The notes under the pieces were generated by a model that had not been told where the DNA came from, did not search any database, and saw only the letters and a list, made by a program, of their open reading frames with translations. Both the position numbers and the translations under genes were made by a program. Positions 22,795 through 27,337 of a DNA stretch of 64,000 bases are shown here, piece by piece (position 1 is the first letter of the stretch; every line of letters starts with the position of its first letter). This DNA comes from Numidum massiliense (GTDB taxonomy: Bacteria; Bacillota; Bacilli; Thermoactinomycetales; Novibacillaceae). The DNA lies in assembly GCF_001375555.1 (NCBI RefSeq), contig NZ_CTDZ01000009.1:3279758-3343757 (forward strand), read 5' to 3'.

Positions 22795-23682
22795 ATGTGT
22801 CAAACGGTTGAAGAAGCCCGCAGGTGGGCTTCTTCCTTTTTACAGCGTGCCGGCATTAGCGAAAGGGAGTCGCAATTTGCGGCAGAGCGGTTGTTGCGGC
22901 ATTTATTGCAGTGGGAGCGGGCCCGCTTTTTTGCGTATCGCGAGACACAACTGCCCCCGAAGTTGTGGCCTAAGTATGAACGCTTAATTATGGAACGGGC
23001 GGCGGGCGCGCCGTTACAACATCTCGTAAAGTATCAAGAGTTTTACGGGCGCGACTTTCGCGTGTCACCAGACGTGCTTATCCCCCGTCCCGAGACGGAA
23101 GTGCTCGTGGAGGAAGTCCTGCAAACGGCGCGTTTCATTTGGGGGGAACAGCCTTGTGCCGTCGTCGACGTCGGCACAGGGAGCGGGGCAATTGCCGTGA
23201 CATTGGCGGCCGAACAGCCGTCGTGGCAAGTAGCTGCAGTCGATCTATCGCCCGCGGCGTTACGTGTTGCGACACATAATGCCGCGGCACACGGGGTGGG
23301 CGAACGCATGCGGTTCTTGGAAGACGATTTGCTGACGTCATTAGTTGCAGACGGCGAACAGTTTGACATCGTCGTCTCCAACCCGCCGTATATTCCCACT
23401 GGCGACATTGTCGATCTAGCTGTAGAAGTACGGGAACACGAGCCCCGCCTCGCCCTCGACGGCGGTACGGACGGGCTAGCCGTGTACCGCCGACTGACGG
23501 CGATGTTACCTTCGGTTGTGAAAGAGAAAAAAGGCTTGGTCGCCTTCGAAGTCGGAATTTTTCAGAGCGGACACGTCGCACGCTTGCTACAGCAGGCGTT
23601 GCCGTTTAGCACGGTGCGTACGATGTCGGATTTACAAGGCATCGCGCGCGTCGTCCTCGCTTCGTGGCAGCTTCATTCGTAA
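22795..23682 (+). CDS. prmC: release factor glutamine methyltransferase
   Basis: A 295-residue SAM-dependent N5-glutamine methyltransferase that modifies the GGQ motif of release factors. The N-terminal helical domain binds the release factor; the SAM motif I is VVDVGTGSGAIAVTLA and the catalytic NPPY is in IVVSNPPYIPTGD. RPETEVLVEEVL, a hallmark of PrmC, precedes them. It is coupled to prfA by a 5-nt gap. Confidence 0.95.
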   Translation: MCQTVEEARRWASSFLQRAGISERESQFAAERLLRHLLQWERARFFAYRETQLPPKLWPKYERLIMERAAGAPLQHLVKYQEFYGRDFRVSPDVLIPRPETEVLVEEVLQTARFIWGEQPCAVVDVGTGSGAIAVTLAAEQPSWQVAAVDLSPAALRVATHNAAAHGVGERMRFLEDDLLTSLVADGEQFDIVVSNPPYIPTGDIVDLAVEVREHEPRLALDGGTDGLAVYRRLTAMLPSVVKEKKGLVAFEVGIFQSGHVARLLQQALPFSTVRTMSDLQGIARVVLASWQLHS

Positions 23683-23689
23683 GTCGTCC

Positions 23690-23719
23690 GTTTATCGCTT
23701 TCCTTCTCTGGCCATACTG
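23690..23719 (+). promoter_or_regulatory. sigma-F promoter of spoIIR
   Basis: GTTTA (23690-23694), exactly 15 nt, and GGCCATACTG (23710-23719) fit the sigma-F consensus GYWTA-N15-GGnnAnAnTR at all fixed positions. It begins 8 nt after the prmC stop and ends about 30 nt before spoIIR, which is a sigma-F gene in Bacillus. Confidence 0.85.
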
Positions 23720-23750
23720 TTAGCGAGAGAGGGAAAGCGAGGAGAGCGGC

Positions 23751-24398
23751 ATGTATAAAAAATACGTTTACATCGTTTTTGCAATTTTAATATTAATGAT
23801 CAGTTGGGAAGGGCAAAAAAATGAGGCAGTCGTCGCCGCGGAGGGGACGATTCCGGATGAAGCCATTCGGCTGCGCATCTTAGCTAACAGCGACGATCCG
23901 CAAGACCAATGGTTGAAACGGCAAATACGGGACGAGGTCGTAGAGTCCATCGGGCAGTGGACAGGACAGTTGGACGACCTTGCCACTGCGCGAAGAGTGA
24001 TCGTCGAACGGCTCCCCGAAATCAAACAGCTGGCGGAGCGCATCGTGCGCAAGCACGGTTTCCCTTACCGCGTTGACGTCGATTTTGGCCAGGTCCCTTT
24101 TCCGACGAAATTATACGGCCAAACGGTTTACCCGGCTGGCGACTATGAAGCGGTGCGCATCGCGATCGGTGAGGGAAGCGGCGCCAACTGGTGGTGCGTC
24201 CTCTTTCCACCTCTCTGTTTCGTCGACATGAGCAATGCCGACGCTGTAGCCGCTGCGCAGCAGACGGAGGAAAAACGAGAGGTAAAAGCGGGCGAACAGT
24301 CGTCACTCAGCACCGACAGCGATCAAGTAGAGGTCCGTTTTTTCCTCATCGATTGGTTACTCAGTTTGTTTGACCGTTTAATAGCGACCTTCGCCTGA
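23751..24398 (+). CDS. spoIIR: stage II sporulation protein R
   Basis: A 215-residue secreted signalling protein made in the forespore under sigma-F; it activates the SpoIIGA protease, which processes pro-sigma-E in the mother cell. A short N-terminal hydrophobic segment (YVYIVFAILILMISW) serves for export. The family signature is AIRLRILANSDDPQDQWLKR (ends AIRLRILAN and QDQWLKR), followed by VRDEV-like helices and GANWWCVLFPPLCFVD. The C terminus is acidic then hydrophobic. AGGAGAG precedes ATG 23751. The perfect sigma-F promoter upstream supports the call. Confidence 0.93.
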   Translation: MYKKYVYIVFAILILMISWEGQKNEAVVAAEGTIPDEAIRLRILANSDDPQDQWLKRQIRDEVVESIGQWTGQLDDLATARRVIVERLPEIKQLAERIVRKHGFPYRVDVDFGQVPFPTKLYGQTVYPAGDYEAVRIAIGEGSGANWWCVLFPPLCFVDMSNADAVAAAQQTEEKREVKAGEQSSLSTDSDQVEVRFFLIDWLLSLFDRLIATFA

Positions 24399-24449
24399 CA
24401 GCAGCCGACATACGCATCTCGTCGGCGTTTACAGTACCTGTCCGCTACC

Positions 24450-24483
24450 GAAACCCTTGATATTTCAAGGGTTTCTCTTTTTT
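24450..24483 (+). terminator. terminator after spoIIR
   Basis: An 11-bp perfect stem (GAAACCCTTGA with TCAAGGGTTTC), a TATT loop and a T-rich tail. Confidence 0.9.
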
Positions 24484-24635
24484 AACTGCATCGACTCTAA
24501 AGATTCGGAGCCGAAGCGGTGCAATCGTAGAAAATTAGGGATTTGGGGGCAACACCTGCGTTAGTGCGTTTAGATTGACACAGTTGAGGTTCCCTTGAAC
24601 AGCGGCGACAACAGCGGAGTAGCGACAGGGCGATT

Positions 24636-24663
24636 TTGCGCACACAGTTACTTGTGATACGAT
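24636..24663 (+). promoter_or_regulatory. possible tsaC promoter
   Basis: TTGCGC (24636-24641), 16 nt and TACGAT (24658-24663), about 40 nt before the start codon. Confidence 0.4.
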
Positions 24664-24700
24664 CGAACTAAGAGTAAAATCAGTAGATCGGGGTATACGA

Positions 24701-25831
24701 ATGGAGACAATAGTTTGGAAGTTATCGGCTGAAGACGGTGTGCAACAGTTACTGCAACACCGTTACATCGAACAGGCTGCCGCAGCGCTAAGGAGAGGGG
24801 AACTGGTGGCCTTCCCGACAGAAACAGTGTACGGGCTAGGTGCCGATGCGACGAACGACGACGCAGTAGCAGCTATTTTTGCAGCCAAGGGACGGCCTAG
24901 CGACAATCCGCTCATCGCGCACATCGGTTCACACGCCCAACTGGAAACAGTTGTTTCCAGTGTGCCGCCCGTGGCCGAACGGTTGATCGAGCGGTTTTGG
25001 CCCGGTCCTCTGACACTCGTCCTCCCTTCGGCAGGGACGGTGTCGCGTAAAGTAACCGCGGGCCTGGCGACAGTCGCCGTACGCATGCCGAGCCACCCGA
25101 TTGCGCGCGCGCTCTTGCAACAAACGGGGTGTCCGGTCGCGGCGCCGAGCGCCAACCGCTCCGGCCGACCGAGTCCGATTGCGCGCGCGCTCTTGCAACA
25201 AACGGGGTGTCCGGTCGCGGCGCCGAGCGCCAACCGCTCCGGCCGACCGAGTCCGACCGATGTCCAGCACGTGCTCGACGATTTGGCTGGACGTATTTAT
25301 GTCGCGCTCGATGGGGGCGAAACGGGTTACGGCTTAGAATCGACAGTGCTCGATGTGACCGAGTCAACGCCTGTCGTTTTGCGGCCGGGTGGGATTACTT
25401 TAGAAGAGCTGCGGGACGCGTTAGGAGACGTTCAGGTCGATCCGTTTTTGCAGCAGCAAAGCGGCACACCGCGTTCGCCGGGGCTAAAGTACCGCCATTA
25501 CGCCCCGCGCGGAGAAATGACATTAGTTAAAGGGAAGGAACGAGAGATGGTAACGCGTATTCGCGCGTTAACGGAACAGTACCAGCGGGAAGGGTGGAAA
25601 GTCGGCGTGTTGACGACAGCGGAGCACCGCAACGCTTACGAGGCTGACGTCGTCATCGCCTGTGGCCAGCGGAGCGAGTTGTCGACAGTTGCCCACGGAC
25701 TGTACCGCGCCTTGCGGGAGTTTGACGAAGTCGGTGTCGAGCGGGTGTTAGCAGAGACGTTTCCGGAAGTTGGCGACGGCGCAACGATTATGAATCGCCT
25801 GCGCAAGGCGGCCGGCGGACGAATCATTTAA
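24701..25831 (+). CDS. ywlC: threonylcarbamoyl-AMP synthase (Sua5/YwlC type) with internal duplication
   Basis: A 376-residue enzyme making threonylcarbamoyl-AMP for the t6A tRNA modification. The YrdC domain carries AFPTETVYGLGADATN, KGRPSDNPLIAHI, RFWPGPLTLVLP and VAVRMPSHPIAR; the C-terminal Sua5 domain follows from about residue 260. The conserved block PIARALLQQTGCPVAAPSAN plus RSGRPS is present twice in tandem (residues 133-158 and 159-184) because of an exact 78-bp duplication. Without it the protein would be 350 residues, the normal size. The repeat falls in the ATP/threonine-binding fold, so it may impair activity or form a tolerated loop. The gene is normally essential or nearly so. 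Confidence 0.92.
   Translation: METIVWKLSAEDGVQQLLQHRYIEQAAAALRRGELVAFPTETVYGLGADATNDDAVAAIFAAKGRPSDNPLIAHIGSHAQLETVVSSVPPVAERLIERFWPGPLTLVLPSAGTVSRKVTAGLATVAVRMPSHPIARALLQQTGCPVAAPSANRSGRPSPIARALLQQTGCPVAAPSANRSGRPSPTDVQHVLDDLAGRIYVALDGGETGYGLESTVLDVTESTPVVLRPGGITLEELRDALGDVQVDPFLQQQSGTPRSPGLKYRHYAPRGEMTLVKGKEREMVTRIRALTEQYQREGWKVGVLTTAEHRNAYEADVVIACGQRSELSTVAHGLYRALREFDEVGVERVLAETFPEVGDGATIMNRLRKAAGGRII
25097..25252 (+). repeat. perfect 78-bp tandem duplication inside tsaC
   Basis: Copies at 25097-25174 and 25175-25252 are identical at all 78 positions, including third codon positions, and keep the reading frame (26 codons). Perfect identity implies a very recent event or an assembly error. 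Confidence 0.95.
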
Positions 25832-25842
25832 CAGTTCGCGTA

Positions 25843-25944
25843 GGCGACCGCAAGTCGCCGCTAGTTGGCTCGGTGGATTGTCCACGTCGTCGCATGATTT
25901 GTCCCCTCCGGACATATGTTGTACGAGACATGTGTGCCGGAGGG
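25843..25944 (+). promoter_or_regulatory. structured leader that hides the mntP ribosome site
   Basis: Three hairpins follow the tsaC stop: GGCGAC/GTCGCC (25843-25859), GTGGA/TCCAC (about 25873-25885), and a long one from 25904 to 25944. In the long one CCCTCCGG pairs with CCGGAGGG, and after a single bulged G eight further pairs (one G-U) extend it to 16 bp with an 8-nt loop. The downstream arm is the mntP Shine-Dalgarno sequence. It does not match the yybP-ykoY manganese riboswitch core as I know it. Confidence 0.65.
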
Positions 25945-25949
25945 ATGAC

Positions 25950-26513
25950 ATGTTTCAAGGACCGGAATACTGGGGTCAATTTTTTACGTTGCTCCTCATT
26001 GCTGTCGCACTCGGGATGGACGCTTTTTCTCTCGGTTTAAGTATCGGCATCCGCGGGGTCACGATGCGCAAGGTGTATGTCATAAGCATATTAATCGGCT
26101 TTTTTCACTTTTTTATGCCTTTACTCGGGATGCTGATCGGGCACGTACTAAGTGTGGTGACGCGTACGGTCGCCACAAACATTGGCGGTGCCTTGTTGTG
26201 TATATTGGGGATCAATATGATCTGGTCGGGCTTAAAAAACGACCGGGAACAGGCGTCGTTGAACGTGTCTTCTGTCGGGGCGACGATTGTATTAGCGCTT
26301 AGTGTCAGTGTCGATACACTATCCGCTGGCCTATCGTTCGGTTTGTTTTCGGCTAATGTGTTATTGGCGGTTATATTACTCGGCAGCGGCGGCGCACTCA
26401 TGGCGGGATTAGGGTTACTGCTCGGGCGCTACGCTAACAAATGGTTAGGGGATTATGGTGAATTAATCGGGGGGGCAATTTTGTGTGGCTTCGGGGTAAA
26501 ATTTTTACTATAA
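25950..26513 (+). CDS. mntP: manganese efflux pump MntP
   Basis: A 187-residue inner-membrane protein with six hydrophobic segments arranged as two repeats, as in MntP (YwlD in Bacillus). The key acidic membrane residues are in VALGMDAFSLGLSIGI and its repeat SVSVDTLSAGLSFG. It exports Mn2+ to prevent toxicity. ATG 25950 follows CGGAGGGA, which is buried in a strong hairpin, so translation may be regulated. Position between tsaC and ywlE matches Bacillus. Confidence 0.9.
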   Translation: MFQGPEYWGQFFTLLLIAVALGMDAFSLGLSIGIRGVTMRKVYVISILIGFFHFFMPLLGMLIGHVLSVVTRTVATNIGGALLCILGINMIWSGLKNDREQASLNVSSVGATIVLALSVSVDTLSAGLSFGLFSANVLLAVILLGSGGALMAGLGLLLGRYANKWLGDYGELIGGAILCGFGVKFLL

Positions 26514-26545
26514 GTTGAGAGCGATTGACAGAAGGAGGATGAGCT

Positions 26546-27337
26546 GTGCGCGTGTTATTTGTTTGTACGGGTAATACTTGCCGCAGCCCAATGGCGGAAG
26601 GGTTGCTGCGAAAAATCGCGGCAGAAGAGGGTCTGGAGATTGAGGTGAAGTCGGCGGGGGTCGCCGTCACTCCGGGTACTGCTTTTGCCCTCCATGCGCG
26701 AACAGTGCTTAAGGAGAAAGGCGCTTCCTTTAAAGGAAAGGCGACGTGGTTGGACGATCCGTTACTCACTTGGGCCGATCTCGTCCTCGTCATGACGAAA
26801 GCACACAAGGTCGTTCTATTAGAGCGTTATCCGGCATACGTCGACAAAGTGTATCTATTGAAGGAATACGTAGAAATGCGCGGCGAAATCGCCGACAAGC
26901 TCCGGCAACTAGATGAGTTGTATGCTGCAGCAGAGCTAAAACGAGCGCAGTTTTTCGCGGAGAACAAACGGCACCTCGAACAGTTGGAGCGACGGTTCAA
27001 ACAACAGCAAGCGAAAAGTGGCGAACAACTGGAAAATAATCCCTCTAATGACCAATCTGGGAACCAAACGGACGACGATGCTGAGCAACATGCCAGTGAT
27101 CAACTCGATGCGCCAACAGGCGAATCGTTCGAGCAGCAATTAGCCCGCTGGCGGGAGCGCTTGTACGAGTTGACCCGACCAGAGGAGGAAAAGATTCGCC
27201 AAATCGAAAGGGAGCTACCCGACTTCGACATCGTCGATCCGTTCGGTGGCACGCTAGATGAGTATCGCGCGTGCGGTGAACAATTGGAGACGCTCCTGAG
27301 GCGATTTGCCCGACAGTTAAAAAATGACGCTATATAA
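26546..27337 (+). CDS. ywlE: YwlE-like protein arginine phosphatase with a large insert
   Basis: A low-molecular-weight phosphatase of 263 residues; relatives have about 150. The catalytic P-loop is VCTGNTCRSPMAEGL with nucleophile C7, T11 (the residue that favours phospho-arginine over phospho-tyrosine in YwlE) and R13. The general acid is in IVDPFGGTLDEY (about D231). Between KVYLLKEYV (residue 109) and DFDIVDPFGG (226) lies an extra segment of about 115 residues that is highly charged, Q/E/K-rich and likely coiled coil with a disordered middle (NNPSNDQSGNQTDDD). YwlE reverses McsB arginine phosphorylation linked to ClpCP degradation. AAGGAGG precedes GTG 26546. Confidence 0.88.
   Translation: MRVLFVCTGNTCRSPMAEGLLRKIAAEEGLEIEVKSAGVAVTPGTAFALHARTVLKEKGASFKGKATWLDDPLLTWADLVLVMTKAHKVVLLERYPAYVDKVYLLKEYVEMRGEIADKLRQLDELYAAAELKRAQFFAENKRHLEQLERRFKQQQAKSGEQLENNPSNDQSGNQTDDDAEQHASDQLDAPTGESFEQQLARWRERLYELTRPEEEKIRQIERELPDFDIVDPFGGTLDEYRACGEQLETLLRRFARQLKNDAI

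Follow-up and report, generated by a model that had tools for sequence, protein, structure and literature searches.

In Numidum massiliense, the gene mntP (ywlD position) appears to have its own SigE-type, i.e. mother-cell, promoter that overlaps a hairpin at the ribosome site, with the promoter spacer doubling as the strand that pairs with the Shine-Dalgarno (SD) sequence; read-through mRNA would thereby be silenced, while mRNA from the gene's own promoter would lack the blocking strand. We give this reading a probability of roughly 0.65. The window, i.e. the whole stretch of 64,000 nucleotides that was analysed, is numbered from its first letter, and all features given below lie on its + strand. 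The putative promoter just before mntP would comprise a −35-like block (GCATGATT, 25892–25899), a 12-nt spacer (25900–25911) and a −10-like block (ACATATGTTG, 25912–25921). Transcription arriving from upstream, probably from ywlC, would copy the spacer, and the resulting mRNA would fold shut and be hardly translated. Transcription begun at the promoter would start in the loop or the 3′ arm of the hairpin, so that its mRNA would be free of the anti-SD strand; the putative start (25926–25930) is a rough guess from the usual distance to the −10 block. Since the spacer pairs with the gene's own SD region, the anti-SD strand would lie between the −35 and the −10 of the gene's own promoter, and most of the protein would be synthesised by the mother cell in the course of sporulation. 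The sequences show the hairpin, a conserved two-block element with SigE geometry, own-family pairing between spacer and SD, and co-occurrence with SigE; use of the element by SigE, the start site, the translation block of the read-through mRNA and the cell type are what we infer.

The mntP gene (25950–26513) encodes a 187-aa protein of the Pfam Mntp family as judged by profile matches, scoring 131.8 bits against Pfam Mntp, 41.8 bits against the NCBIfam MntP equivalog (cut-off 214) and 51.9 bits, below cut-off, against the NCBIfam sporulation protein YtaF. Its naming as a manganese exporter gene in a preliminary description of this DNA therefore holds at the level of the Pfam family but not at that of the equivalog. 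Upstream lie spoIIR and a ywlC-like gene (24701–25831, an L-threonylcarbamoyladenylate synthase gene by profile matches), and downstream a low-molecular-weight phosphatase-like gene. A strong terminator-like hairpin of 11 pairs (TCTTTTTT, 24450–24475) stands after spoIIR and before ywlC, which makes ywlC the likely source of read-through in the window, and a sigma-70 scan of 23600–26600 found no vegetative promoter between ywlC and mntP. The ywlC-like gene also contains a perfect in-frame tandem duplication of 78 bases (25097–25256, 2.1 copies, 100% matches), which repeats about 26 residues of the Sua5 domain and is either very recent or else an assembly artefact.

In the minimum-energy fold of 25832–25975, positions 25900–25920 pair with 25927–25950, forming a stem of 21 pairs with a 6-nt loop and bulges at 25936 and 25945–25946. 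The SD GGAGGG (25939–25944) is completely paired in this stem, the first base of the start codon (25950) is paired too, and the spacer makes up the lower 5′ arm. The 16-bp stem with one bulge described earlier is thus present, only a little short, and the burial of the whole mntP ribosome site was borne out by the fully paired SD, as were the two smaller hairpins 5′ of the stem (25843–25859 and 25873–25885). The fold was more stable than dinucleotide shuffles of the stretch (z = −2.61; 2 of 200 shuffles equally stable), and a slightly longer stretch gave a similar result (z = −2.56; 3 of 200). The stem is retained with other bases in L010, the sole family mate, with a spacer–SD duplex of −21.9 kcal/mol in the window and in L010 alike. 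A repeat element was rejected, as the hairpin stretch is single-copy in its own genome, where a 141-base query matched, besides itself, only short runs of 14–24 bases. A leader peptide was rejected as well, the in-frame TTG at 25878 having by eye no SD before it. That the stem serves as an intrinsic terminator or attenuator between ywlC and mntP has a practically negligible probability, for although a 5-pair terminator-like match lies at 25900–25914, six such matches occur across the 3-kb region versus 3.7 (sd 1.9) by chance, and the full stem has no T-run after it.

Energies of SD opening were computed for RNAs with and without the 5′ arm. In the window, opening cost 15.0 kcal/mol in the long RNA, 6.6 with the spacer shuffled and 4.0 in the short RNA; RNAs starting at or before 25905 required 11.7–14.6 kcal/mol, and those starting at or after 25910 only 2.7–4.6. 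Hence, as computed, the SD is paired in the long RNA and freed upon an internal start, as control of the sigG or phage T4 type requires. The predicted short mRNA of the window partly pairs its own start codon, and opening of SD plus start codon would cost 10.5 kcal/mol from 25926 and 5.5 kcal/mol from 25930. Across 115 sequences of relatives, the medians of SD opening were 6.8 kcal/mol for the long RNA, 4.7 for the long RNA with its spacer shuffled and 2.2 for a start at +15. The long RNA exceeded the short one by at least 3 kcal/mol in 66 of the 115. Family averages were higher for the long RNA in 31 of 36 families, the exceptions being f12, f19, f23, f39 and f56, two of them with one sequence each. 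Melting of the hairpin by heat, i.e. an RNA thermometer as suggested earlier, would likewise make use of a stem that buries the SD, but the computed opening in the long RNA dropped merely from 15.7 kcal/mol at 30°C to 9.8 kcal/mol at 65°C, so that we abandoned this suggestion as highly improbable.

Of 101 relatives, 80 carry a homologue of the protein; a search across 398 class genomes at E 1e-15 detected one in 232. The regions upstream of homologues were compared in 122 genomes from 37 families of the class, 40 of the 232 class genomes having been picked for family spread, together with L095–L098, and the remainder coming from the search of the 101 relatives. Left out were L039 (one distant locus from a scan of genome contigs, without GCATA and uncounted), six second copies (L087–L090, L092 and L093) and the weak match of G098 (L094). 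A CATA anchor was present in 120 of the 122 regions and a start codon in 118, and opening energies were obtained for 115. In 91 of 120 regions (27 of 37 families) a ywlC homologue precedes the gene in the same orientation; spoIIR does so at a distance of up to 15 kb in 74 of 78 genomes, a count based on 78 of the 80 genomes with a homologue, G095 and G098 being omitted for having weak matches only. The four exceptions are G058, whose region contains a GCATA, G072 and G078, whose regions do not, and G062, in which spoIIR sits on a separate contig; some regions close to spoIIR, such as L082 of G051, lack GCATA too.

GCATA was the most enriched 5-mer in these regions, being present in 113 of 122 versus 10.5 (sd 2.9) in shuffles and in 35 of 37 families; the window itself carries ACATA within its −10-like block. 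A conservation profile anchored on CATA and weighted by family reached its maximum at GCATA and displayed a second block at a fixed distance 5′ of it across families (−21 to −13: G, T/G, T/C, C/A, T, A/G, A/T, T, T/C), with 1.22 bits at −17, where 106 of 120 regions have T. The T of CATAnnnT was present in 89 of 120. Information was low farther upstream (−35 to −22: 0.18 bits at −35, at most 0.10 elsewhere), and the spacer between the two blocks was poorly conserved (0.04–0.13 bits at −10 to −4). Between the −10 block and the SD, a purine-rich aGACAAG-like stretch was also conserved at +14 to +20 after GCATA (GACAA in 54 and ACAAG in 60 of 122 regions), which pairing explains incompletely. A search of 42 genomes for a regulon with GTTCTTTTT-N-GCATA yielded 39 matches, 27 at mntP and 12 elsewhere versus 10 in a reversed control, i.e. 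no regulon beyond mntP.

The −35 word of SigE is KMATATT, and it fitted the mntP regions best at −20, the expected offset (mean 3.89 of 7, versus 2.34, sd 0.41, highest 3.40, at other offsets). By eye, the window matches it at 5 of 7 positions and L010 at 6 of 7; matches are weaker in families with TTCTAAAC or TTCTTTTT, and −35 blocks are off consensus in many mntP regions. As a yardstick, spoIVA, spoIIIAA and spoIID loci of relatives were collected (89 of 90 usable), in which KMATATT (at least 6 of 7) stood 13, 14 and 15 nt before CATA in 16, 15 and 5 loci, respectively, and in at most 2 loci at each of the remaining gaps between 6 and 24. A reference −35 matrix built from 23 of these sites, which were picked with KMATATT at gap 14 and hence depend on that word, scored 0.73 at mntP −21, whereas other offsets gave −10.2 (sd 1.3); both for the window and for L010, −21 ranked first among 37 offsets. 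Thus the −35 block lies about 14 nt before the CATA −10 block, as SigE promoters require, and both blocks share the register and spacing of the spoIVA, spoIIIAA and spoIID promoters. Differences were noted as well: CATA follows a G in the mntP element but a C or T in 19 of the 23 reference sites, and in mntP the −35 is frequently off consensus and the spacer pairs with the SD. This G, like the frequently found blocks TTCTAAAC and TTCTTTTT, departs from the SigE reference sites and would suit recognition by a DNA-binding regulator or a different sigma factor, e.g. SigK, with the hairpin logic unchanged; given that register and spacing equal those of the three reference promoters, we consider this unlikely. 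SigK in particular, whose word wants AC at −20 to −16, was rejected, as the conservation profile has no AC there. The published SigE logo comprises an 8-nt −35, a gap of 12 ± 1 and a 10-nt −10 (PMC517825), to which the 8-12-10 layout of the window was aligned with the place of CATA within the 10-nt −10 assumed.

Sensing of a ligand was weighed next to this promoter-like architecture. An RNA element that opens the SD upon binding Mn2+, another metal or a protein would suit the gene family, and the purine-rich stretch at +14 to +20 is enriched too; nevertheless, no Rfam match was found, the conserved blocks hold a DNA-type spacing while the stems vary among families, and a B. subtilis ywlD disruptant was reported with unchanged cell manganese in the passage on it in PMC10448178, all of which make such an element quite improbable. 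The Rfam scan of the whole window gave no family at its gathering score and, at E up to 10, a single irrelevant miRNA model (E 1.3, far below gathering); that of 20 relatives gave five matches (E 0.34–4.6), all irrelevant and below gathering. The yybP-ykoY model (RF00080) had no match in the own genome at E 0.001 under stricter filters, and the 33 matches listed for 42 genomes all lay either on another contig than the gene or more than 70 kb away from it. On the basis of these scans a riboswitch was rejected, in agreement with the earlier observation that the yybP-ykoY core is absent, for which the covariance scan with RF00080 likewise gave no match in the window. A different kind of translational control, as then envisaged, is likely given a buried SD without that core. 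The new metal sensor put forward at the same time was not supported, although a metal or protein ligand may conceivably act in addition, as the conserved GCATA and the block 12 nt further 5′ have the form and spacing of a sporulation promoter, needless for an RNA sensor; the hairpin, which overlaps a sporulation-type promoter in spore-forming relatives, is probably no metal sensor.

The pairing of the spacer with the SD was followed across families. Because the best duplex always pairs much, swaps with other families are the proper test. Native spacer–SD duplexes ranked at or below 5% of the swaps in 35 of 120 sequences, 6 being expected (family p = 1e-5, with families treated as independent). 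Outside f2–f6, which belong to one order, this held for 34 of 83 (29 of 32 families; p = 2.8e-5), and control arms at −40 to −24, −57 to −41 and +5 to +21 gave 6, 2 and 12 of 83 (p = 0.61, 0.74 and 0.18, respectively). The same test on reference SigE promoters gave 1 of 23. Inside f2–f6 the spacer pairing was weak (5 of 37). The window's own duplex ranked at 0.06, so above 5%, and that of L010 at 0.007. In the best duplexes of the 83 sequences, spacer positions −13 to −2 were paired in 76–90% with several pair types. It could be argued that the promoter is real and the hairpin without function, arising simply because the spacer is rich in pyrimidines and the SD rich in G, as swapped partners pair well too (−12.05 versus −15.21 kcal/mol for native ones) and the excess is weak or absent in f2–f6 and several other families. 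Yet native pairing exceeds swaps outside f2–f6 while the control arms show no excess, and shuffling of the spacer lowers the energy needed to open the SD in 82 of 115 sequences (29 of 36 families), so that we regard a by-product as fairly unlikely and retain the spacer as the candidate anti-SD strand.

In f2–f6, most −35 blocks read TTCTTTTT, and a stable hairpin, with a folding energy of at most −9 kcal/mol, directly adjoined the block in 17 of 37 sequences versus 8, 5 and 5 at displaced positions, so that the −35 block there looks like the U-tract of a terminator; the other families had no excess of such hairpins (15 of 81; displaced, 16, 11 and 12 of 83). In eight loci (L014, L021, L023, L030, L042, L046, L047 and L050), terminator-like hairpins just 5′ of the −35 block run directly into it (TTCTTTTT or similar), and terminator and promoter possibly overlap there. 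Over all sequences, the spacer–SD excess averaged 2.79 kcal/mol in 79 sequences without a preceding terminator-like hairpin versus 0.51 in 36 with one (p = 0.0013, which ignores kinship, with the grouping based on a fixed 120-nt stretch). Two means of preventing protein synthesis from read-through are thereby suggested, an anti-SD spacer and a terminator. A broader and tentative extension, which we hold to be possible but doubtful, is that ywlD-type Mntp is a mother-cell sporulation protein silenced elsewhere by the anti-SD spacer or, in f2–f6, by a terminator with the −35 block as U-tract; the two would be interchangeable insulators fused to a SigE promoter, the purpose being that neither the growing cell nor the forespore, which has to load Mn2+, contains a manganese exporter.

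SigE (TIGR02835, E 1e-90) was detected in 267 of 398 class genomes, 241 of them over the curated cut-off. Comparison of the listings by eye gave 35 genomes with SigE only, which places all 232 gene carriers among the 267. At E 1e-15, the 131 class genomes without SigE yielded no ywlD-type Mntp gene, and all 232 carriers have SigE. This co-occurrence is confounded by kinship; G085 lacks both while other members of f9 have both. According to the section on this fusion in PMC10448178, glucose completely inhibits PywlDE-lacZ of B. subtilis in sporulation medium, which is consistent with a sporulation promoter but no proof of one.

If correct, the proposed arrangement would be a compact design, namely a promoter whose own spacer silences transcripts begun elsewhere. 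It indicates when and in which cell the ywlD protein is expected, may offer a reason for the unchanged cell manganese of the B. subtilis ywlD disruptant (data in PMC10448178), makes the partition of manganese during spore formation testable and provides a rule with which to search for other developmental genes situated downstream of housekeeping genes.

Among known systems, the yybP-ykoY Mn2+ riboswitch (RF00080) is described in the text consulted of PMC11647493 as controlling E. coli mntP, a case of translational control of a gene for the same protein family; mntP here differs in having no match to that model in the window, nor any within 70 kb in the 42 genomes. Closer in logic is B. subtilis sigG (spoIIIG), whose read-through mRNA from PspoIIG carries a large hairpin that, in the account of PMC5942855, is proposed to block translation of the read-through and cannot form in mRNA from the gene's own sporulation promoter. 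That case concerns another gene and a SigF/SigG promoter, whereas at mntP the anti-SD strand would be the promoter spacer itself, with the pairing followed over many families. The same logic applies to phage T4 I-TevI and other late genes, where, as outlined in PMC2988022, RNA structure makes the ribosome site inaccessible in transcripts of the early and middle phases and the late promoter is positioned so that late transcripts cannot adopt that structure, as proposed here for mntP; the T4 genes are of a phage and use a late promoter, whereas mntP is a chromosomal gene of spore formers. In the open-access main texts searched, no such control of ywlD or mntP was found. Thus, the logic is known from sigG and T4, while the gene, the breadth across families and the use of a promoter spacer as the anti-SD strand look new.
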